Source of the DNA: Pseudarthrobacter phenanthrenivorans Sphe3
GTDB lineage: Bacteria > Actinomycetota > Actinomycetes > Actinomycetales > Micrococcaceae
Assembly: GCF_000189535.1 (NCBI RefSeq)
Contig: NC_015145.1
Location: 3,348,001-3,412,000, forward strand
Direction of reading: 5' to 3'
Length of the DNA: 64,000 nucleotides
The notes below the pieces were generated by a model. It saw only the letters and a program-made list of their open reading frames with translations, ran no database searches and had not been told where the DNA came from. A program made the translations under genes and the position numbers. This document shows, in pieces, positions 52,421 to 62,319 of this stretch. The first letter of the stretch is position 1. Every line of letters begins with the position of its first letter.

Positions 52421-53029
52421 ATGGCTCACGAAACTGACGGAGAAGATCGCCTGCGCACCCCTGCAGGAGCAGCCTCCCCGCCAGACGGGCCATCACCTGC
52501 GCAGCCTGCGCCGCCCCCTCGGCCCGGCCTGTCCTATGCTTCGCCGGCGCCCATCGTGGCCGTCAAAGCGGCACCGCGCAGCATCACGCTTGCCAGGACT
52601 TTGTGGCTGTTCAGCTTCGTTGCAGGCCTGGCCGTACTGGTGGGATCCTTCCTCACCCGCGACTCCCACCTGGAACGGCTTCGAACCGTGGTGCAGGACA
52701 TGGCTCCCGACGGCGATGCGGAGGCGGTTACCACTGCCGCAGGCATCGTCTTCTGGGGAAGCGTGGGAGCCCTGCTCCTGGTGATCCTCCTCCAGGCCGC
52801 CATGTTGGGCGTGGTCATGGGGCGCCAGGGCTGGGCGCGCTGGGCGCTGGTCCCGCTGCTGGCCGGGCAAGTGCTGGTGATGCTGGTGGCCGCAACCTTC
52901 CTGGTGCCCGCCGGCGATGGCGGCAGCTACGTGGTCATGCTCTGGGGGCTCCAGACCCTGCTGGCGTTCATCGGGCTGGTGCTCTTCTTCGTCCCCGCCT
53001 CCAACGCCTGGCTGAAGTCAGGCAGATAA
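52421..53029 (+). CDS. Four-helix membrane protein of unknown function
   Basis: This 202-residue protein has a disordered Pro/Ala-rich N-terminus (about 50 residues) and then four hydrophobic helices (TLWLFSFVAGLAVLVGSFL, VFWGSVGALLLVILLQAAM, WALVPLLAGQVLVMLVAAT, VVMLWGLQTLLAFIGLVLF). I recognise no known family. It starts 10 bases after the PLDc_N gene. Its last 12 bases overlap the end of the second dynamin gene on the other strand. Confidence 0.75.
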   Translation: MAHETDGEDRLRTPAGAASPPDGPSPAQPAPPPRPGLSYASPAPIVAVKAAPRSITLARTLWLFSFVAGLAVLVGSFLTRDSHLERLRTVVQDMAPDGDAEAVTTAAGIVFWGSVGALLLVILLQAAMLGVVMGRQGWARWALVPLLAGQVLVMLVAATFLVPAGDGGSYVVMLWGLQTLLAFIGLVLFFVPASNAWLKSGR

Positions 53030-54562
53030 CGGCTTAGGGTGCCGCACCGGTTCCTGCAGGGCTGAGCGCTGCGAGATCTGGCGGTGGAGTTCCCGGGCTG
53101 AGGCTTCTGCCAGGATGCCCTCGCAACTTCGGATCACCACCCGGCAGGCCTCCAGCGCAGCCCTGTCCGTCAGGGGGTTCGCGGCAAGGGCACGCCAGCG
53201 CGCCAGGTTGCTGCGGACCTCGTCTGAAAGCTGCTCAGGCGTTGCCTCCGGTTCCAGCCCCAGCCGGACGTGGGACGCCGCGCCCCAGCCCCCGATCAGG
53301 CGTTCAGCCTCGGCAGCCAGTTCCGGGTTCAGTGCCACCCCGGAGGTACGCAGCGAGGCAAGCAGCCGCAGTTCACGGAACTCGTGCGCATTGACCTGGA
53401 GCCTTTCGAGGGCGGCGGCCAAATCACCGGTGCCCTCCCGGGGAGAACTGCGCAGCAGGGAGTCCACCGCAACGAGGGCAGTCCGGGCCTTGAGGGCGTC
53501 CGCGCGGGCCTGGAACTGCCGGCCAAGCATCTCCAGCAGCGGATCCAGGCCGCTGCGGCGCGCAAGCTCGTGGGCAAGGGGCGTGGGCTCGTCAAAGCCG
53601 TTGCGGATAAGGACCACCGCCAGGCGGATCCCAAACAGGCCGTACCTTTGCAGCAGCGAGGCCCTGGCCTTCGCCGTCATTCCTTCCGGATCCGTTGCCC
53701 GGAGGAACCGGTCAGCCGAAAGCAGCATCCTTTCCCGGACCGGGCGGTCCAGCTGGGCCAGCAGCCGAAGAGAATCGAAGTCAGGCTGGCGCATGCTGCG
53801 GGCGCTTTGCGCCAGTAGTCCCGCCACCGGGACGACGCCCAGCGCCAATTTCCGCAGGTTGTGGTCCCGCCGGTACCTTTCGGCGATTTCCCCGGCGGAG
53901 AGGAGGGAATCAATCCGTCCGGCACCCACTTCGTCGGCACGGGACAGCACGGCCAGGGCATTCACCGTTCCCGACCGCCCCGCCATGGTGTCGGCGAAGG
54001 ATTCCAGGAACCTCAGGTCCGACGCATGCATGTGCCGCATCAGGTAGATGATGGCATCAGCCTCTGACGGCGCATCGGCCGGCGCCAGGAAGCTGGTGGA
54101 CCGCGCGGAGACATCCCCGGAGAGCGAGGCTATGCCGGGGGTATCTATCAGCGTCATGGCCTGGAGTGCCGGGGCGGGCCACTGCACGTCAAGGCGCTGG
54201 ACATCCTCCGCCTGCACGTCGCCCAGGACGAACACCAGCCGGCCGTCCACGCGCTTGAGCGGAAGGTTCCGGGGTTCGCCCTCTACCGGGTAGAGAGTGA
54301 TCCGGGGCGTGTGCCCGTGCCGGTACCAGGTGACGATCCGGGTGCATTCACCCGTGTCCGTGGGGGCTATCTCCTCGCCGATGATTGCGTTCAGCAAGGT
54401 GGACTTGCCGGCCTTGACCATGCCGGCAATGGCCACCCGCAACGGCTCGGACAGCCTGCGAGCATAGTCTTGGAGTGCCGCTGAGGCGGCGGGGTCATCC
54501 CGGTACACCTCAAGCGCGGCCCGGACCAGGTCCTTCGCGCCGGCGATCGTGGTGTTTTTCAT
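53018..54562 (-). CDS. Dynamin-like GTPase, IniC-like
   Basis: This 514-residue protein has the dynamin-family GTPase motifs: G1 AGMVKAGKSTLLNAIIG, a G2 Thr in TDTGECT, G3 LIDTPGIASL and G4 LSRADEVG. The rest is helical and Leu/Ala/Arg-rich without a clear membrane span. Paired bacterial dynamins remodel or repair membranes. It overlaps the upstream dynamin stop by 4 bases (ATGA). In mycobacteria the same pair is IniA-IniC behind IniB, which this operon resembles. Confidence 0.85.
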   Translation of the reverse strand: MKNTTIAGAKDLVRAALEVYRDDPAASAALQDYARRLSEPLRVAIAGMVKAGKSTLLNAIIGEEIAPTDTGECTRIVTWYRHGHTPRITLYPVEGEPRNLPLKRVDGRLVFVLGDVQAEDVQRLDVQWPAPALQAMTLIDTPGIASLSGDVSARSTSFLAPADAPSEADAIIYLMRHMHASDLRFLESFADTMAGRSGTVNALAVLSRADEVGAGRIDSLLSAGEIAERYRRDHNLRKLALGVVPVAGLLAQSARSMRQPDFDSLRLLAQLDRPVRERMLLSADRFLRATDPEGMTAKARASLLQRYGLFGIRLAVVLIRNGFDEPTPLAHELARRSGLDPLLEMLGRQFQARADALKARTALVAVDSLLRSSPREGTGDLAAALERLQVNAHEFRELRLLASLRTSGVALNPELAAEAERLIGGWGAASHVRLGLEPEATPEQLSDEVRSNLARWRALAANPLTDRAALEACRVVIRSCEGILAEASARELHRQISQRSALQEPVRHPKPLSA

Positions 54563-56547
54563 CCTACGGCCGCCACTGTCGGCGCCCCCGCTGTCCGCTG
54601 GGCCGGGTTTCGCGTTGATGACCCTGCGTTTCCCCCTCCGCCCGCACTCCGGGATGCCGTGCCTGCCGCCCCCGGCGCGGCGGGTACGGCAGTTTTGGCC
54701 GTTTCGGCGGCCACAGCCTGGGCGGCGCGGGACAGGGCGTCCACCTTCGTGAGCTCAGCTTTGATCTCCCGGATGCGGACATCCTTTTCGAGTGCGTAGG
54801 TCGTTGCCGCCTTCTGGGCTGCCGCCACCGAATCAGTAAGGGACCGGTGGTGCTCGTCCGCTATCTCGGTAAAGTGGTCGCGGGTGGAACGCTGGACCAG
54901 CCGCAGCCTGTCCTTGAGCTGCTTTCCAACCTGGAACGTGACGTCATCCAACTGCCGCCGCACCAGTGCCTTCGCTTCGGTCTGCCGGCGCTTGAGCCGG
55001 GCCTCCTGGTCTTCACGGTACGCCTTGCGCCCCAGCAGCAGGCCCGCTCCCACCGAGAGCGGATTGATCAGGGCCATGCCAAAGATGCCGGTCAGGAGCC
55101 CGAACATCAGCACACCGCCGTAGGACCCGCGCATGCCGATCAGGACCTTTTGCAGGGGTTTGATGCGGCCGTCGTCCAGTGTTGGCATCTCATCCACGGG
55201 GTCCAGGGCGTCCCCGGTATCGGACACGCGGAACACAGGCAGCGTCACTTCATCAGCTGCGAAGTGTTCTGCCACCTGGGCGGCGAGCCACTGGGCACGC
55301 TCGCTGGTCCAGACGAACGTGTCCGAGATCGCCGCCGCGGCGCACTCCTCAAGCCATTTGGTGAACTGGGGCCAGGTGGGTCCGGGATCGCCCTGGTCGA
55401 TTGCTGTTTCAGCTTCCCGCTGGATCCGGCGCAACCTGTCCCGCAGGTCGTATTCCATATCGGCGATCAGGTCGCTGATGCCGTCATTAAGGGTGATCTG
55501 CCACCGGGCGGAACGTTTCCGGAGGTCGTCGGCCTCAGCCTTGGCCAGCTCCAGCCCCGCGATCATTTGGGGTGTCCGCTCCGGGTTCTCCAAGGCTTCC
55601 AGTTCCGACTGCAATGAGAGACGGAGGTTTTCCGTGACGGACAGCAAGTCCTGGCTCACCGAGCGCCGCTGGAGGCGCTGCGCCTTCCCCACGATCTCGT
55701 TGCGGAGGTGGGTTATCAGTCCCGGGAAGCCCGACTCGGCGTTGAGTTCGGCGTCCTGCAGCCGGGAGGCCTCCAGGCGGAGGTCGGAGGAAACTGGGTA
55801 AAGCGGGATGTCCTGGGCAACCTGTGCGAGGTGCGCGCGGTCCAGTTCCTCCACGCGCCGCCAATCCGGGTAGAGGTCTGTCTTGGAGAGGATCCCCACA
55901 ACGCTGGGGGTGATCCGCATGGCCTGGCGGAGGAAGCGCAGCTCGGGTTCGGTGTATTCCTGCGAGGCGTCGCTGACCAGGAGCATGGCGTCGGCCGTGG
56001 GCAGGGCGGTGAGGGTGGTGAGGGTGTGCGACGATCCCATGCCGCCGACCCCCGGGGAGTCAATGATGGTGAGGCCGCCGGTGAGGAGCTTCCGTGGGAG
56101 GCAGACCTCCGCGGCCACCAGTTTCTTGCTGTTTCCTGGATTGCCGCGCTCTGAGACGAAGGCAGCAAGGTCGGCGATGTTGATTGGCTGCCGCTCAACG
56201 TTGCCCTCGTCCACGGCATCGGCGTCGGCCTTTGGAACCAGGATGCTTGCCGATGCCGGGTCACCGTAGCGGACCACGGTGGGGACAGAGGTTGCGATGT
56301 CATCGTCCACCGGGCACACCGGGGCGTTGACCAGTGCGTTGATCAGCTTGCTTTTGCCTTGCTTGAATTCGCCGACGACGATCACCCGGATGCTGGGATC
56401 CCTGAGCCGTACCAGGGTTTGGTCCAGGCGTTTGCGGAGGTCCGTCCGGTCCCCCGTGCCCACCAGCTGGAGGCCCTGCTCCACCAGTTTCACGAGCTGC
56501 CCCGATGTCACCGGGGTTGAAGGTTTTGCCAGTCCTGCTTCTGCCAC
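54559..56547 (-). CDS. Dynamin-like GTPase with membrane segment, IniA-like
   Basis: This 662-residue protein has G1 VGEFKQGKSKLINALVN, G2 around ATSVPT, G3 IIDSPGVGGMGSS and G4 GILSKTDLYP. A helical stalk follows and a hydrophobic paddle at about residues 473-505 (MFGLLTGIFGMALINPLSVG) that could enter the bilayer. The C-terminal 60 residues are Ala/Gly/Thr/Pro-rich. It is coupled to the second dynamin and begins 110 bases after the IniB-like gene. It should bind GTP and fuse, fission or brace membranes. Confidence 0.87.
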   Translation of the reverse strand: MAEAGLAKPSTPVTSGQLVKLVEQGLQLVGTGDRTDLRKRLDQTLVRLRDPSIRVIVVGEFKQGKSKLINALVNAPVCPVDDDIATSVPTVVRYGDPASASILVPKADADAVDEGNVERQPINIADLAAFVSERGNPGNSKKLVAAEVCLPRKLLTGGLTIIDSPGVGGMGSSHTLTTLTALPTADAMLLVSDASQEYTEPELRFLRQAMRITPSVVGILSKTDLYPDWRRVEELDRAHLAQVAQDIPLYPVSSDLRLEASRLQDAELNAESGFPGLITHLRNEIVGKAQRLQRRSVSQDLLSVTENLRLSLQSELEALENPERTPQMIAGLELAKAEADDLRKRSARWQITLNDGISDLIADMEYDLRDRLRRIQREAETAIDQGDPGPTWPQFTKWLEECAAAAISDTFVWTSERAQWLAAQVAEHFAADEVTLPVFRVSDTGDALDPVDEMPTLDDGRIKPLQKVLIGMRGSYGGVLMFGLLTGIFGMALINPLSVGAGLLLGRKAYREDQEARLKRRQTEAKALVRRQLDDVTFQVGKQLKDRLRLVQRSTRDHFTEIADEHHRSLTDSVAAAQKAATTYALEKDVRIREIKAELTKVDALSRAAQAVAAETAKTAVPAAPGAAGTASRSAGGGGNAGSSTRNPAQRTAGAPTVAAVG

Positions 56548-56657
56548 AGCGCGTCCTTTGCCTCAGGTTTCACACGGAATGCGGGATAAGCCGGGAAGAG
56601 CCCGGCAGGAGTTCTGGGTGCTCCTGCCGGGCGCTTACGGGTACCCGGGACTTGTCG

Positions 56658-57809
56658 TTAGAGGACGATCGCCGAGTCTTCGACCTCGATGTCCGCGTCG
56701 ACCTCCACCTCGGTGTTGGTGGAGTTGTCCTCGGTGTAGGTCAGCTCGTTGTCGGCGACAACAATGTTGTCCTCGACGACCGTGGTCTCTGAGTTGTCCT
56801 GGAAGGAGTCCTCGACCTCGACGTCCACATCGGTGGAGTTGTCCTGGAACGAGTCCTCGATCTCAACCTCGGTGGTCTCCGTGGTGGAGTTGTCGTTGAA
56901 GGAGTCGTTCAGTTCAACATTGGTGGAGCTGTCCTCGTTGAAGGAATCCTCGATCTCAACGTCAGTGTTGATCGAGTTGTCCGAGTTGTCGGTCAGCTCC
57001 ACGGAGTTGTCGTTGAAGGAATCCTCGACGTCCACCTCGAGATCATTCTCAACCGAGTTGTCCGAGTTGTCGTTGTAGGAGTCGTTGACCGAGTTGTCCG
57101 AGTTGTCGTTGAACGAATCCTCCACATCGACGTCCAGGTCGGTGTTGAAGGAGTCGTCGATGTCCGTCTCTTCGTTGCCGATGTTGACGTCGCCGCCGGC
57201 ACGGATGGAGTTGTCCGTGGAGTTATCCGTGGAGTTGTCCGTGTTGTAGGAATCCTCGATGTTGTTGGAGTCCTCGACGTTGGCGTCGTCGCCGGCTGCG
57301 ATGGAGCGGTCGCCGGAGGCGATGACGGAATCGTTGTCGAACCACTGCTCCACGTCGCCTTCGGCCCAGATGTTCTGGTTGACGGACTGGTCAACGATGT
57401 TGTCGCGGTCGTCCACCGTGGAGGTGTAGGAGTAGTTGTTCACCACGTGGTGGAGCTGCTGGACTGCGTGGGCGTGGTCTTCGTGGTCATGGTGACCCCC
57501 ACCGTGTCCGCCGCCGTGGTGCCCGCCGCCGCCGTGATTTCCGCCGCCGGTGCTGCCGCCGCCGCCAATGTGGCCGGTCCAGGAGGTGTTGCCGCCGGTG
57601 TTGTACTCACGGTCGAACCGGGAGGTGTTGATGGTGACGGGTGCGTAGTCCAGGACTACCGGCATTGCGGCGTCCACGTCTGCAGAGCAGACGTCACCCA
57701 GGCCGTGCTCGTCCAGTACCTTTTCCGGATCATCCAGGAAGTCCTGTGCGGCCTGGCGGTCGCCGAAGAGGTGCATCAGGAACTGGACGAGGTCGTTTGC
57801 GAGTGTCAT
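56658..57809 (-). CDS. IniB-like protein with D/N/S-rich repeat tail
   Basis: This 383-residue protein starts at ATG 57809 after GAGGA. The first 50 residues (LANDLVQFLMHLFGDRQAAQ, FLDDPEKVLDEHGL) match the IniB N-terminal domain. A Gly/His-rich stretch (about 75-112) follows, then a long acidic tail with a recurrent unit near EDSFNDNS, at least nine times with variants. The tail has very few hydrophobic side chains apart from spaced Val/Ile/Phe, which fits a beta-solenoid or extended fibre. No signal peptide is evident. It precedes two dynamin genes as iniB precedes iniA/iniC in mycobacteria. Confidence 0.8.
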   Translation of the reverse strand: MTLANDLVQFLMHLFGDRQAAQDFLDDPEKVLDEHGLGDVCSADVDAAMPVVLDYAPVTINTSRFDREYNTGGNTSWTGHIGGGGSTGGGNHGGGGHHGGGHGGGHHDHEDHAHAVQQLHHVVNNYSYTSTVDDRDNIVDQSVNQNIWAEGDVEQWFDNDSVIASGDRSIAAGDDANVEDSNNIEDSYNTDNSTDNSTDNSIRAGGDVNIGNEETDIDDSFNTDLDVDVEDSFNDNSDNSVNDSYNDNSDNSVENDLEVDVEDSFNDNSVELTDNSDNSINTDVEIEDSFNEDSSTNVELNDSFNDNSTTETTEVEIEDSFQDNSTDVDVEVEDSFQDNSETTVVEDNIVVADNELTYTEDNSTNTEVEVDADIEVEDSAIVL

Positions 57810-57976
57810 TTGATGGTCCTCAATCTTCTCTCTGAGTTGCGGATCGCCCGGCGTCGTTGCCGGGCTTGAATCAAACGTATGGTCCCGGGTGGGGACCGGG
57901 CATCGGGCCGTTTCCCCCTACCGGGAAGCACCCTGCCGGGGAACCTGAACCCCCTGGTGTTAGGGGGGTTAGGGGC
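57810..57976 (-). promoter_or_regulatory. Structured leader of the IniB-like gene
   Basis: The gap between the regulator gene and the IniB-like gene has three hairpins. AACCCCCT/AGGGGGGTT (57948-57970) would end the regulator transcript. GGTCCC/GGGACC (57881-57897) and CCCGGC/GCCGGG (57847-57864) lie in the presumed leader. No -35/-10 pair stands out. The region is a good place for the LuxR-type regulator to act. Confidence 0.4.
57948..57970 (-). terminator. Hairpin after the LuxR-type regulator gene
   Basis: AACCCCCT and AGGGGGGTT form an 8-bp stem with a 6-base loop, 7 to 29 bases before the coding end at 57977. It separates the Hsp70-LuxR part from the iniB-dynamin part. Confidence 0.45.
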
Positions 57977-60052
57977 TTATTCCTGAGGGGGATTTTCGGA
58001 GCCCAGGGCAAGGCGCAACCGTGCCAACAGGTCTGACCGGTTTTCCGCGCCCAGGCGGCGTCGCATCCTGGCGATGTGGTGTTCGGCAGTCCGGGGGGAG
58101 ATGTAGATGGCCTCACCGATCTCCCGGTACGTCTTGCCTTCGAGCACCAGCCGGGCTACTTCCTTTTCCCGTTCGCTCAGGCCGGACCCATCCTGCTGGA
58201 TGCTGCCTGCGGTTTCTGCGGCAGGCACAGCACGGGCGTCCTGTCCGGACCCTGCTCCGTTTCCTGCCGGGCCAGGCTGGGGATGGAGGTCCCGGGCGCA
58301 GGAGAGCAGCCGCACCATGTCTTTGCGTTCTTCCGCTTTTGCCGCTGCATGCCCTGCCAGCCGGGCGCCTTCCCAGGGCATGCCCACCCTGCCCAACCCC
58401 CGCGCTGCGGACTCCACGTCCGCCGTCGTGAACCTGCCGGCGAGGACGGACACCCAGGCCTTGCCCGCAGCGGCAAGGACCGCGGCGAGGTGGCTGGTAC
58501 GGGCTGCGCGCGCCAGGGCGGCAGCATGCGGGGCGAGCTGCGCCGGGCTTTCACCCAACAGCGCAGCCTGCACCGCCGCCCAGTGGAACGGGACTGCCCA
58601 CAACGGCGGATCGCCCAGCCGGTCCAGCAGCTGCCGCGCTTCATCGAGATAGTGCGCCACCCTCCGGGTCTCCCTGAGCCGGGCAGCCGTGATCATCAGC
58701 TCGCCCCAGGGGAGGAGGCTGTACAGGTCCACCGAGGTGTGCAGCATGGCTTCACGTGCCCGCTCCCATGCCATCACCAGCTCCGGAACTTCCCCGTTCC
58801 GCCGGGCCAGGCCCACTTCCAGGGCGGCCCGCAGGAATTCATCCCGGGGAACGAGGGGCCAATGGTTCGCTTTGGACGCTTCGTTGATTGCGAGCCGCGC
58901 ATCCTCGAGTTTGTCCTGCTGCATGGCAGACCATGCCTGCAGCAGGAAGAGCCGGGGCTTAGCGGCGTTGCCGCCCTGTCCAGCCGCTGTTGCCGCCCGG
59001 CAGACACCTTCCGCCAGGTGCGGCTCCCCACTGTGCAGGGCCACCAGCGCAGCCAGGGCGGCGGGGGTCTCCGGAAGCGGCAGCGCCGCGCCCGCCGCGT
59101 TGAACATGTCTGCAGCATGGATCAGCACTGGCAGCGCCTGGTACGGATCCTCCCCCAAGGAACCGAGGACGCCTTTGCCGGTCTCGGCAAGGGTGGCGGC
59201 CAAAAGGGTGGGAGAAGCGGGCGGAGCGTCCGCGCGGAACAGTGCCTCCGCGCCGGCCCTGTTGCCGCATCCCACCATGGCCACGGCAGCAAGGGGCGCG
59301 GACGGTCCCATCCGGGTAGCGCCGAGCCAGCTGTACGCATCCGCTGCCCGCGCCAGCATCCCGCGCTGGGCCCACACCGCGGCGGCCACGTCGGCACCCC
59401 GGCGGACATCCGGCGGGTTGTCGCACACCAGCAACGTATCGATGATCCGAGTGGCTGCGTCCAGGTCGCCGTCAGCCGCAGCCGCCTGGGCGCGCCGGGC
59501 TGCGGTGCCGGTCTCGTCCGCTCCGGCCAACAGGGCTTCCCCGTAGAGCTGCGAGGCCAGCGCCGGGTTGTGCTCCAGGGCCTTGTCCCCTGCGTGTTCC
59601 AGCTCAGCCGCGACGCGGGGGTCCGCCAGGCCGCCACGGGCCAGCTCGCGGGCGAAGTCGCCCAGGGGCTGCCCCTGGCTGGCGTACGCAGTTACGAGTT
59701 CCCGCTGGAGGGCGTGGACTTTGGCGGTAGGGGCGACGGTGAGCAGCGCGTGCTGTGCCGGGCCCACAACGGAGCCGTCCGCGGTCAGGAGGCCTGCCGC
59801 CTCGGCCCGTTCCACCAGGGCGGTCAGGCTTTCCACCTCGCCGCGGTCGATCTTGCCCTGCAGGTCCGCCGGAAGCGGTCCGGGCAGCGTGAAACCGACG
59901 GACAGTGCAAGCAGCAGTTCCCGGACGGCCGCGTTTTCGCCCTTGAGCTGCCGCGCCATTTGCTCGGCGGCACCCTGCGGCGGCGCGTCATTGTGCAGTT
60001 CCGGCAGCAGGGAGTCAGTCCGGTCCGAGGGCCGGTTGTGATGCCCAGTCAT
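57977..60052 (-). CDS. LuxR-type transcriptional regulator without an NTPase domain (IniR-like)
   Basis: This 691-residue protein ends in a LuxR HTH (GLSEREKEVARLVLEGKTYR to SPRTAEHHIARMRRRLG, about 615-675). The middle 450 residues are Ala/Leu-rich helical repeats of TPR type. The N-terminal 120 residues resemble the winged-helix part that follows the ATPase in LAL/MalT regulators, but no Walker A or B motif is present. It starts 2 bases after the Hsp70-like gene stop, so signal input may come from that partner. IniR of M. tuberculosis is a possible counterpart. Confidence 0.82.
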   Translation of the reverse strand: MTGHHNRPSDRTDSLLPELHNDAPPQGAAEQMARQLKGENAAVRELLLALSVGFTLPGPLPADLQGKIDRGEVESLTALVERAEAAGLLTADGSVVGPAQHALLTVAPTAKVHALQRELVTAYASQGQPLGDFARELARGGLADPRVAAELEHAGDKALEHNPALASQLYGEALLAGADETGTAARRAQAAAADGDLDAATRIIDTLLVCDNPPDVRRGADVAAAVWAQRGMLARAADAYSWLGATRMGPSAPLAAVAMVGCGNRAGAEALFRADAPPASPTLLAATLAETGKGVLGSLGEDPYQALPVLIHAADMFNAAGAALPLPETPAALAALVALHSGEPHLAEGVCRAATAAGQGGNAAKPRLFLLQAWSAMQQDKLEDARLAINEASKANHWPLVPRDEFLRAALEVGLARRNGEVPELVMAWERAREAMLHTSVDLYSLLPWGELMITAARLRETRRVAHYLDEARQLLDRLGDPPLWAVPFHWAAVQAALLGESPAQLAPHAAALARAARTSHLAAVLAAAGKAWVSVLAGRFTTADVESAARGLGRVGMPWEGARLAGHAAAKAEERKDMVRLLSCARDLHPQPGPAGNGAGSGQDARAVPAAETAGSIQQDGSGLSEREKEVARLVLEGKTYREIGEAIYISPRTAEHHIARMRRRLGAENRSDLLARLRLALGSENPPQE

Positions 60053-60054
60053 GC

Positions 60055-62166
60055 TCACGCCACCGGTTCGGCAGGCGTGACCGGGGCGACCGTCTCGGAC
60101 GGGGGTGGAGGCGGGGGCGCCTCCGTGGTCTGGGTCTGGGTAGGAACCGGCTCCACCGGCGCAGGCTCCACCGGCGCGGGCTCCACGGGTGCCGGTTCCA
60201 CGGTAGTGGGAACAGGCTCCGCAACGGGCGTGGTGGGTACCGGCTCCGGAACGGGCTCCACCGGTGTGGTGGGGGCAGGGTCCACGGGTGCCGGTTCCAC
60301 AGGTGCGGGCGTAGTTGGTACAGGCTCCTGGGTCACGGGGTCCGTGGTGCCGGGCGTTGTCGGTCCGGCAGTGCCGGTGCTTCCGGTCGGCGTTCCTGTG
60401 GGCTCCGTCGTTCCTGGGGCCGCATCGCCCGTTCCGGCAGCGGTGCCCGGCGCGGTACCCGTGCTGGTGCCTGACCCGGGCGCGGCGCTGGTGCCGTCGG
60501 ATCCCGCCGCAGCCTTCTCCCCCGCCGCTTTCTCCCCGGCGGCCTTCCCCCCGGATGCGCTGGAGGTCGGCTTGCTGGTGGGCGAAGCAGCCACTTCCAG
60601 GCCGGCCCCTCCCGCGTCCTTTTTCTTTGCGGCCGCCTCGATGCCCTTGGCCGGTGCCTGGGCCTCCACTCCCGCTCCGGCTGCTGCCTGTCCGCCCGAC
60701 CCTCCGCCGGCACCGCCGGCACCGCTGGCTGAGGCACCCTTGTCTTCGCTTGCGCCCGCGTCCGGCGTAAAAATGGCAGTCAGGCTGCTCAGGCCCTCGG
60801 GACTCTGTGCTGCCGTAGCGGACAGAACGGTGAACAAAGCCGCAGCAGCAGCGATGGCGGTGAACCGTACGCTGGGCTTGGGTGCGTGCGCACCGCCCCG
60901 CGTGCCGTGCCCGGGATGGCCGTGCCCCGGGCCCTGCGGCGCGGACCCTGCCAACGCTCCGGCCGCCGTCGTGCCCTTCCGGGACCAACTGGCCAGCCGC
61001 CCCGGCGTGTGCCCGGCCGCCTCATCAGGCTCGACGGCGGCCGCTGCTTCCGCGGCCGCCGCGGCTTCGGCAGCGGCGGCGGCCTGCCTCGCGAGCACCG
61101 CTGCCACGGCAGCTCCCAGGCAGATGGAGGACTTGGGGTCCGCGTCCACGGCGATGGGACGGTCCAGCTGCTCCGAAATCAGTTGGGCCACCAAGGGAAT
61201 CCGTGATGAGCCGCCGATCAGGAGCACGGCGGAAAGGTCTGCGGGCTGCAGCTGGAGGTCTGCCAGCGACTGTTCCAGTGCGTCCACGGTCTCCCGCAGG
61301 GGCTCTTCGATGAGCGCCTCGAATTCGGAACGGACCAGGCGCACCTGTTGCTGGAATCCGGGGAGGAGCACGGAGATACTGGCTTCGCTGTCCGCGGAGA
61401 GCGCCTCCTTTGCCTCCACGCATTCGCGCTGCAGCCTTGCAAGGGCCGCCAGGGCACCCGGGTCGGCGGGGTCCAGGGTGGCGAGGACGTCGCCGGTATG
61501 CCCGGCGACGTAGCGCAGGACGGCGGCGTCGAAATCGGCCCCGCCGAGGTTTTCAATGCCCTCCGGACGGCCGAGCAGTTCGAAGCGGCTGGTGCCGGCC
61601 TTTCTCAGGACCGCCGTGTCAAAGGTTCCGCCGCCGAGGTCGTAGACGGCAATGGTGCTTCCCTCATCAACGCGGACCTGCGAAGCGTAGTGCAGGGCGG
61701 CCGCCTCCGGCTCGGTCACCAGTGTTACGTCCTGCAGGCCCTTGGACGCCAGGGCGGCCTTCAAAAGGGTGGTCCGGTGGCTGCCCCAGGCTGCAGGGTG
61801 GGTCAGGATGATGTCCGACGGCGGCGCCCCCTCGCGCTCTTCCGCGCGGTCCGCCACCCACCGGGCCATGGTGGCGAAGACGTCCTCGGCGGGCAAGGAC
61901 AGCGCGCCCACGGAAAGCGGCACGGCGTCGCCCACACGGCGCTTGAATTCCCGCACCACCCGGGCCGGGGAGTCGAGGCCGCGGCGTTCCGCGGCTTCGC
62001 CCACCAGGACGGGGCCTTCCTCCGGGTAAAAAAGCACGGAGGGCACCGAGGCACCGCGGAGTCCGAGCGGCAGGCACTCGGGGGAAGAAGACGCTCCTTG
62101 GTCAAAACGGGCAACGGCAGCAGCTGTGAAGCTGGTCCCGACATCGATGGCGAGAACGTAGCTCAT
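60055..62166 (-). CDS. Membrane-anchored Hsp70-family ATPase with extracytoplasmic Pro/Thr tail
   Basis: This 703-residue protein starts at ATG 62166 (GAGG upstream). Residues 1-375 are a complete Hsp70/actin-type ATPase: VLAIDVGTSFTAAAVARFD, AVYDLGGGTFDTAVL and LLIGGSSRIPLVAQ. There is no substrate-binding domain. A Gly/His linker is followed by one membrane helix (about 430-450). A tail of about 250 residues, rich in Ala, Gly, Thr and Pro, has PVEPAP-type repeats and should lie outside the membrane. The architecture suggests a sensor coupling the cell surface to cytosolic ATPase state. Confidence 0.87.
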   Translation of the reverse strand: MSYVLAIDVGTSFTAAAVARFDQGASSSPECLPLGLRGASVPSVLFYPEEGPVLVGEAAERRGLDSPARVVREFKRRVGDAVPLSVGALSLPAEDVFATMARWVADRAEEREGAPPSDIILTHPAAWGSHRTTLLKAALASKGLQDVTLVTEPEAAALHYASQVRVDEGSTIAVYDLGGGTFDTAVLRKAGTSRFELLGRPEGIENLGGADFDAAVLRYVAGHTGDVLATLDPADPGALAALARLQRECVEAKEALSADSEASISVLLPGFQQQVRLVRSEFEALIEEPLRETVDALEQSLADLQLQPADLSAVLLIGGSSRIPLVAQLISEQLDRPIAVDADPKSSICLGAAVAAVLARQAAAAAEAAAAAEAAAAVEPDEAAGHTPGRLASWSRKGTTAAGALAGSAPQGPGHGHPGHGTRGGAHAPKPSVRFTAIAAAAALFTVLSATAAQSPEGLSSLTAIFTPDAGASEDKGASASGAGGAGGGSGGQAAAGAGVEAQAPAKGIEAAAKKKDAGGAGLEVAASPTSKPTSSASGGKAAGEKAAGEKAAAGSDGTSAAPGSGTSTGTAPGTAAGTGDAAPGTTEPTGTPTGSTGTAGPTTPGTTDPVTQEPVPTTPAPVEPAPVDPAPTTPVEPVPEPVPTTPVAEPVPTTVEPAPVEPAPVEPAPVEPVPTQTQTTEAPPPPPPSETVAPVTPAEPVA

Positions 62167-62319
62167 GGGAACCTCAGGAAAAACTGTTGTCTCGCCTGCA
62201 AGCTTCATCACTGGCGAACGTCACCAAGGTAGCACCACGGCCGGACGGCGAACACCCCTATTGCTACACCGAATTGTTATTTTCCGTGAGCGGTCCGCCG
62301 GATCGGAAGAAACCCCTGC

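Follow-up and report, generated by a model that had tools for sequence, protein, structure and literature searches.

A six-gene relative of mycobacterial iniBAC in Pseudarthrobacter phenanthrenivorans Sphe3 with an Hsp70-type gene coupled to an ATPase-less IniR

The locus and its genes

The stretch of 64,000 nucleotides analysed here (the window) comes from Pseudarthrobacter phenanthrenivorans Sphe3 and contains a six-gene relative of the mycobacterial iniBAC system, the gene set of which is conserved. Its IniR-like transcription activator lacks the ATPase domain and is encoded directly behind a gene for an Hsp70-type protein. The first-pass annotation had described five successive minus-strand genes, namely an iniBAC-like dynamin operon with a regulator and an Hsp70-type membrane ATPase. 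All five open reading frames are confirmed with domain assignments from Pfam, NCBIfam and the PDB, and this description is borne out by these domains and by a strongly conserved neighbourhood. Absent from it were the missing ATPase domain of the regulator and a conserved sixth gene on the plus strand (52421-53029).

The iniR-like gene (57977..60052, minus strand) encodes an activator of 691 residues composed of a helical remnant, a sensor resembling MalT domain III, and a C-terminal LuxR helix-turn-helix (GerE, 1.7e-12), without the AAA+/STAND ATPase part. The NCBIfam equivalog model for IniR, NF038181, matches at 364.8 bits, below its curated cut-off of 750 bits, and the match begins only at model position 192. 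In Mycobacterium marinum IniR the N-terminal AAA+ ATPase domain occupies residues 24-247 (PMC5760070). The alignment of the window protein contains no P-loop, its structure model shows no alpha/beta P-loop fold, and neither reveals the nucleotide-binding oligomerisation domain (NOD) of STAND proteins; no match to the N-terminal ATPase domain is present in any frame of the window locus. The MalT-like sensor fold is read from the model, MalT domain III having been found by VIA re-alignment. Foldseek's own list for the model holds general tetratricopeptide-repeat matches only, with Tom71/Tom70 first, and a link from this ranking to the Tom70-Hsp70 pair is taken as coincidence. The closest named regulators are those of Arthrobacter sp. 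P2b (85%) and Pseudarthrobacter sp. GA104 (86%), with identity given for the best segment.

The hsp70-like gene (60055..62166, minus strand, 703 residues) lies immediately upstream, its TGA stop (60057-60055) and the iniR ATG (60052) being separated by 2 nt, as the first-pass annotation had stated. Pfam and PDB searches assign to its product an Hsp70-type nucleotide-binding domain. The Pfam HSP70 match (2.9e-43) covers profile positions 108-375 of 599 only and ends at residue 358, the PDB match to DnaK (2v7y, E 2.3e-37) covers residues 1-356, and the five catalytic positions scored are all intact (DKEDT). No substrate-binding domain is found in the window protein; beyond the Pfam match lie a single predicted transmembrane segment at about residues 433-451 (60814..60870, minus strand; hydropathy scan, coordinates derived by hand) and a low-complexity tail, with positive charge higher on the N-terminal side of the segment. 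The tail outside the cell that had been suggested earlier is not universal, as 11 of 117 Hsp70s have no predicted segment in the same kind of scan. Eight of these 11, all adjacent to iniR, end 34-74 residues past the nucleotide-binding domain (L127, L137, L142, L236, L243, L245, L250 and L254); the short form of L142 may reflect a frameshift. DnaK aside, the window gene is the sole HSP70 match in its genome. A conserved GTGATGAAG is encoded at 62203-62211, 45 bases 5' of the hsp70 ATG and in frame, and the real start could lie upstream of the annotated one. Hsp70-family genes on plasmids of Rhodococcus, Prescottella and Gordonia share ∼35% identity with the nucleotide-binding domain of the window protein.

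Downstream of iniR, the iniB-like gene (56658..57809, minus strand) encodes an IniB N-terminal domain (NF038175, 67.5 bits against a cut-off of 40), a strongly conserved middle (alignment A2, around DDRD...SVNQNIWADGDV), and a repetitive tail rich in Asp, Asn and Ser. Its structure model contains a small helical domain at residues 1-55 with predicted local distance difference test (pLDDT) values mostly of 66-83, while the remainder is mostly below 50 (mean 41.7), which suggests a small helical domain followed by disorder. The iniA-like dynamin gene (54559..56547, minus strand, 662 residues) matches IniA (6j72) in the PDB sequence search at E 2e-143 over residues 16-610, nearly the whole length. 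The second dynamin gene (53018..54562, minus strand, 514 residues; Dynamin_N 4.1e-13, with PDB matches to dynamin-like proteins) is in the IniC place, its conserved position after iniA making it a candidate counterpart of IniC. The sixth gene (52421..53029, plus strand) is convergent with the second dynamin gene, and their ends overlap by 12 bases. Four transmembrane helices are predicted for its product and, duplicates included, in 137 of 141 sixth-gene loci, and no Pfam family scores above cut-off in any of the six proteins examined.

Conservation of the neighbourhood and of the iniB upstream region

IniR profile searches covered a class sample of 296 genomes, 150 of the genus, 245 of the family and 401 of the family of G266, and found IniR in 27, 76, 25 and 221 genomes, respectively. 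Neighbourhoods were collected from 22 of the 27 class, 75 of the 76 genus and all 25 family genomes (window included), together with 80 named loci, the best-scoring of 572 confirmed relatives and for that reason weighted towards close ones. Removal of 31 loci with an identical core piece from the 198 obtained, window included, left 167 unique loci. In 153 of these the next module gene upstream of iniR, in the same orientation, is hsp70, and the one-strand order hsp70-iniR-iniB-iniA-iniC occurs in 103; a divergent order, C<A<B<H>R>, is found in 14 loci, including several taken to be mycobacterial. Relatives of the sixth gene are present in 115 loci, adjoining the second dynamin gene in 114, 94 of which have the exact window order; the loci counted include 18 of the 19 fetched family loci that are sited elsewhere in the genome.

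The 14 loci without adjacency, of which about half are truncated at contig ends, comprise five loci with a full-length IniR whose hsp70 lies at some distance from it (L117, L118, L119, L123 and L124), an incomplete IniR (L121), six loci at contig ends or on short contigs (L122, L125, L143, L249, L252 and L309), L215, and L256. An apparent Hsp70-IniR fusion at L215 is ruled out, the open reading frame passing through a run of X with hsp70 before that run in the same frame. L256 (G389), the sole ATPase-less case in which upstream sequence is available and Hsp70 is missing, looks like a decaying locus, since its iniA is split in two and a second dynamin was not found.

Searches of the 150 congeners detected iniR in 76, iniB in 76, hsp70 in 75 and iniA in 74, such that 74 genomes have all four searched genes, 74 have none and only G370 and G389 are partial (Fisher p 1.6e-42 for co-occurrence of iniR and hsp70, relatedness not accounted for). 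The partial modules L256 and L257 both retain iniR and iniB; G370 (L257) has no iniA match. For 75 of the 78 genus loci the sequence retrieved includes both ccsB and menA. In all ten ini-less congeners examined, of 74, ccsB and PLDc_N-menA-menE are 0.1-3.5 kb apart, with no module gene, the sixth included, between them at E 1e-5. The co-occurrence in other actinobacteria that the first-pass annotation had proposed as a check is observed: the module is present or absent as a unit and is more than a chance neighbourhood.

The 57810..57976 region between iniR and iniB, proposed earlier for reporter assays, does contain conserved boxes, and it is the proposed activator-dependent promoter of iniB-iniA-iniC on the minus strand. 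Box 1 (CCCCTAA, 57969..57975, minus strand) and box 2 (CCCCTAA, 57960..57966, minus strand) are 9 nt apart, a spacing shared by 37 pairs in the Arthrobacter-group set; an inverted box, which reads CCCCTA on the plus and TAGGGG on the minus strand, lies at 57915..57920, and a second conserved element, CCCGATG, at 57901..57907 on the minus strand. CCCCTA/TAGGGG occurs within 220 bp upstream of iniB in 103 of 106 promoters from loci where no ATPase domain was detected, a set that includes incomplete IniRs, and in 48 of 54 with the domain, compared with 14 of 501 random 220-bp pieces from the same loci and 10 of 81 upstream regions of hsp70 in the Arthrobacter-group set. CCCGATG/CATCGGG is found upstream of iniB in 89 of 106 and 28 of 54, respectively. 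The frequency of CCCCTAA in the window is unremarkable (3 seen, 3.3 expected), two of the three copies being the pair directly behind iniR. Because M. tuberculosis IniR binds DNA directly upstream of the iniBAC operon (PMC5760070), the CCCCTA-type boxes are taken as putative IniR boxes.

The state of the two ATPases

A tree built from 89 IniR cores requires six changes of the ATPase-domain label, the ATPase-less branches being the Pseudarthrobacter/Paenarthrobacter clade that includes the window, an Arthrobacter agilis/echini clade, Compostimonas, one Pseudonocardiales metagenome-assembled genome, one branch of family f10 and one f33 genome. Homology of the domain among the other alignment rows is the reason for reading the changes as losses. 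This is a quick tree with long branches, on which L133 and L126/L134 lie, and it excludes six further ATPase-less f10 loci (L324-L329). "Full-length" here means a match to our own profile of the N-terminal domain; the strict P-loop pattern is missing in 10 such loci (L117, L132, L229, L234, L239, L243, L245, L250, L251 and L254), and the domain may therefore be degenerate there too.

An Hsp70 gene is next upstream in 99 of 100 ATPase-less IniRs with upstream sequence (the 98 systems scored below plus L215 and L256) and in 53 of 61 full-length ones. The latter count rules out mutual exclusion of Hsp70 and full-length IniR, and it also means that adjacency alone proves no dependence. The state of each Hsp70 was scored at five catalytic positions against DnaK of the same genome, with two incomplete IniRs set aside. 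In the 98 ATPase-less systems 92 Hsp70s are intact, 5 degenerate (L126, L133 and L134, and L193 and L257 with one change each) and 1 unclear, whereas in the 53 full-length systems 28 are intact, 22 degenerate and 3 unclear. None of eight f10 loci keeps all five positions, L327 and L331 being only partly aligned. One congener, G327, carries two modules, one with a full-length IniR and a degenerate Hsp70 (L155) and the other with an ATPase-less IniR and an intact Hsp70 (L156).

A rule that exactly one ATPase is kept fails: 28 systems keep both, L126, L133, L134 and L324-L329 have neither intact, and the corrected test is not significant, the tree providing six independent pairs with on average 2.1 in the same direction and 0.3 in the opposite one (median p 0.5). 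The safe statement is that Hsp70 is the usual neighbour of IniR and, in the clade of the window, the sole ATPase of the pair.

Proposed control of IniR and comparison with known systems

The simplest reading, which we hold with middling confidence, is a six-gene module in which the Hsp70-type protein tethers IniR at the membrane in a MalK-like manner and dynamins carry out the response. The coupled hsp70-iniR pair, preceded by an upstream region of its own, would be the sensor-regulator unit, and iniB-iniA-iniC the response unit. At rest, the membrane-anchored nucleotide-binding domain would bind IniR directly and keep it at the membrane, a presumed contact and sign of control modeled on the ATPase MalK, which restrains MalT from the membrane side by direct contact (PMC6468293). 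Envelope damage, or a change of nucleotide or ligand, would release IniR to bind the CCCCTAA boxes before iniB and switch on IniB and the two dynamins, which would remodel or vesiculate the membrane; remodelling is the likely output, given the fission activity of M. smegmatis IniA (PMC6715688). Since the window IniR itself lacks an ATPase domain, Hsp70 must be the source of any ATP-dependence in the pair.

Several observations weigh against the MalK-like tether. MalK contacts both the nucleotide-binding domain and the sensor of MalT, and the window IniR retains only the sensor side; the 11 Hsp70s described above have no predicted membrane segment. Five full-length IniRs for which upstream sequence is available lack an adjacent upstream Hsp70, and the hsp70-iniR arrangement is therefore not obligatory. 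Catalytic residues are incomplete in the 22 degenerate Hsp70s beside full-length IniRs, with three more unclear, and in all eight f10 loci, and ATP hydrolysis by Hsp70 therefore cannot be the general mechanism. Finally, CCCCTA/TAGGGG is present upstream of hsp70 in 27 of 82 loci outside the Arthrobacter-group set, some of which have hsp70 and iniB diverging from a common upstream region. A broader proposal, that the activator repeatedly shed its STAND domain and is controlled by a split signalling ATPase, a membrane-anchored Hsp70 switch encoded by the coupled upstream gene that would be the general partner of IniR across actinobacteria, is offered only tentatively.

The main rival, unlikely in our estimation, makes Hsp70 a positive switch that replaces the lost ATPase domain in trans, ATP-bound Hsp70 assembling active IniR multimers. 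The higher proportion of intact Hsp70s beside ATPase-less regulators (92/98 against 28/53), the opposite states of L155 and L156, and the observation that iniBAC induction follows the ATP level in M. bovis BCG (PMC6104191) are in keeping with such a switch. Nevertheless, the six independent pairs do not establish the trend, 28 systems retain both ATPases, and nothing has been replaced in L126, L133 and L134, where Hsp70 is degenerate, or in L324-L329, none of which keeps all five residues (L327 partly aligned). Somewhat less probable again is that Hsp70 belongs to the response and not to sensing, in which case the membrane-anchored ATPase would act on the dynamins or on IniB and would be cotranscribed with the regulator for historical reasons. 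The loci in which hsp70 is present yet away from iniR (L118, L119, L121, L122 and L124 of family f19, also L117 and L123) fit this role, but hsp70 adjoins iniR and not the dynamins in the 153 loci, even in the 14 divergent ones, its upstream region is mostly without boxes in the Arthrobacter-group set, and G370 retains hsp70, iniR and iniB without an iniA match.

We consider it improbable that the module guards the membrane as a defence system, for example against phages. Such a system would be patchy, mobile as a unit and equipped with a dynamin pair; about half of the congeners have the module (76 of 150 with at least iniR and iniB), and both dynamins weakly match the PADLOC models LeoA/LeoBC (best 1.5e-14 and 6.4e-10), but the match to IniA is far stronger, none of the other four proteins has a PADLOC match at 1e-3, and the genus loci mostly occupy the one ccsB-menA site, not a variable island. 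Adjacency by chance or genome history is hardly credible, as the 14 loci lacking it, about half of them contig-end cuts, stand against an all-or-none distribution within the genus and a neighbourhood conserved in several families and at a second site as well.

The MalK-like tether departs from E. coli MalT/MalK in that the window regulator has no NOD, through which activation of MalT goes (PMC4381067), and in that the partner has an Hsp70 fold and is not an ATP-binding cassette ATPase, no transporter is involved, and the interaction is only proposed. With DnaK/Hsp70 chaperones the window protein shares the nucleotide-binding domain and its catalytic residues; it differs in having a membrane segment and tail in place of a substrate-binding domain, and a gene coupled to a regulator. 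GTPase-centred conflict systems likewise combine actinobacterial NTPases with HSP70 lacking the peptide-binding domain, but with other GTPases, the terms dynamin and IniA being absent from that text (PMC7159879).

The closest system is mycobacterial iniR/iniBAC (Rv0339c and its target operon; PMC5760070), which likewise has an IniR homologue, an IniB N-terminal domain, an IniA-type dynamin and a second dynamin. The iniB-iniA-iniC order and, in loci taken to be mycobacterial, the CCCCTA boxes before iniB are also common to both. The suggestion that Hsp70 is foreign to the mycobacterial system is not supported: it is next upstream of iniR in 6 of the 7 fetched loci of genus g15, taken to be Mycobacterium (L116, L120, L128, L129, L131 and L135, not L123), and an Hsp70-type gene beside iniR is mentioned for M. 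smegmatis in PMC5760070, the only such mention met in our literature searches of partial texts, others in print being possible. L120 and L131 have Hsp70-like genes on both sides of iniR. By analogy, the window module may serve in envelope stress. To our knowledge, the mycolate trehalose lipids of mycobacteria are absent in Micrococcaceae, and the signal is therefore probably not trehalose-lipid turnover everywhere. Trehalose activates iniBAC, its binding not having been demonstrated (PMC5760070), and the use of the AAA domain by IniR to read the ATP burst "remains to be determined" (PMC6104191). Naturally occurring IniRs that lack the domain yet have the same boxes before iniB allow IniR sensing to be tested directly, and they draw attention to the Hsp70 gene coupled to iniR as an overlooked partner. 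The window system differs from the mycobacterial one in its ATPase-less IniR, in hsp70-iniR lying upstream on the same strand and not divergent, in catalytic residues kept in Hsp70 that the presumed-mycobacterial Hsp70s lack, in an acidic, Asn/Ser-rich iniB tail, and in the additional four-helix membrane protein.
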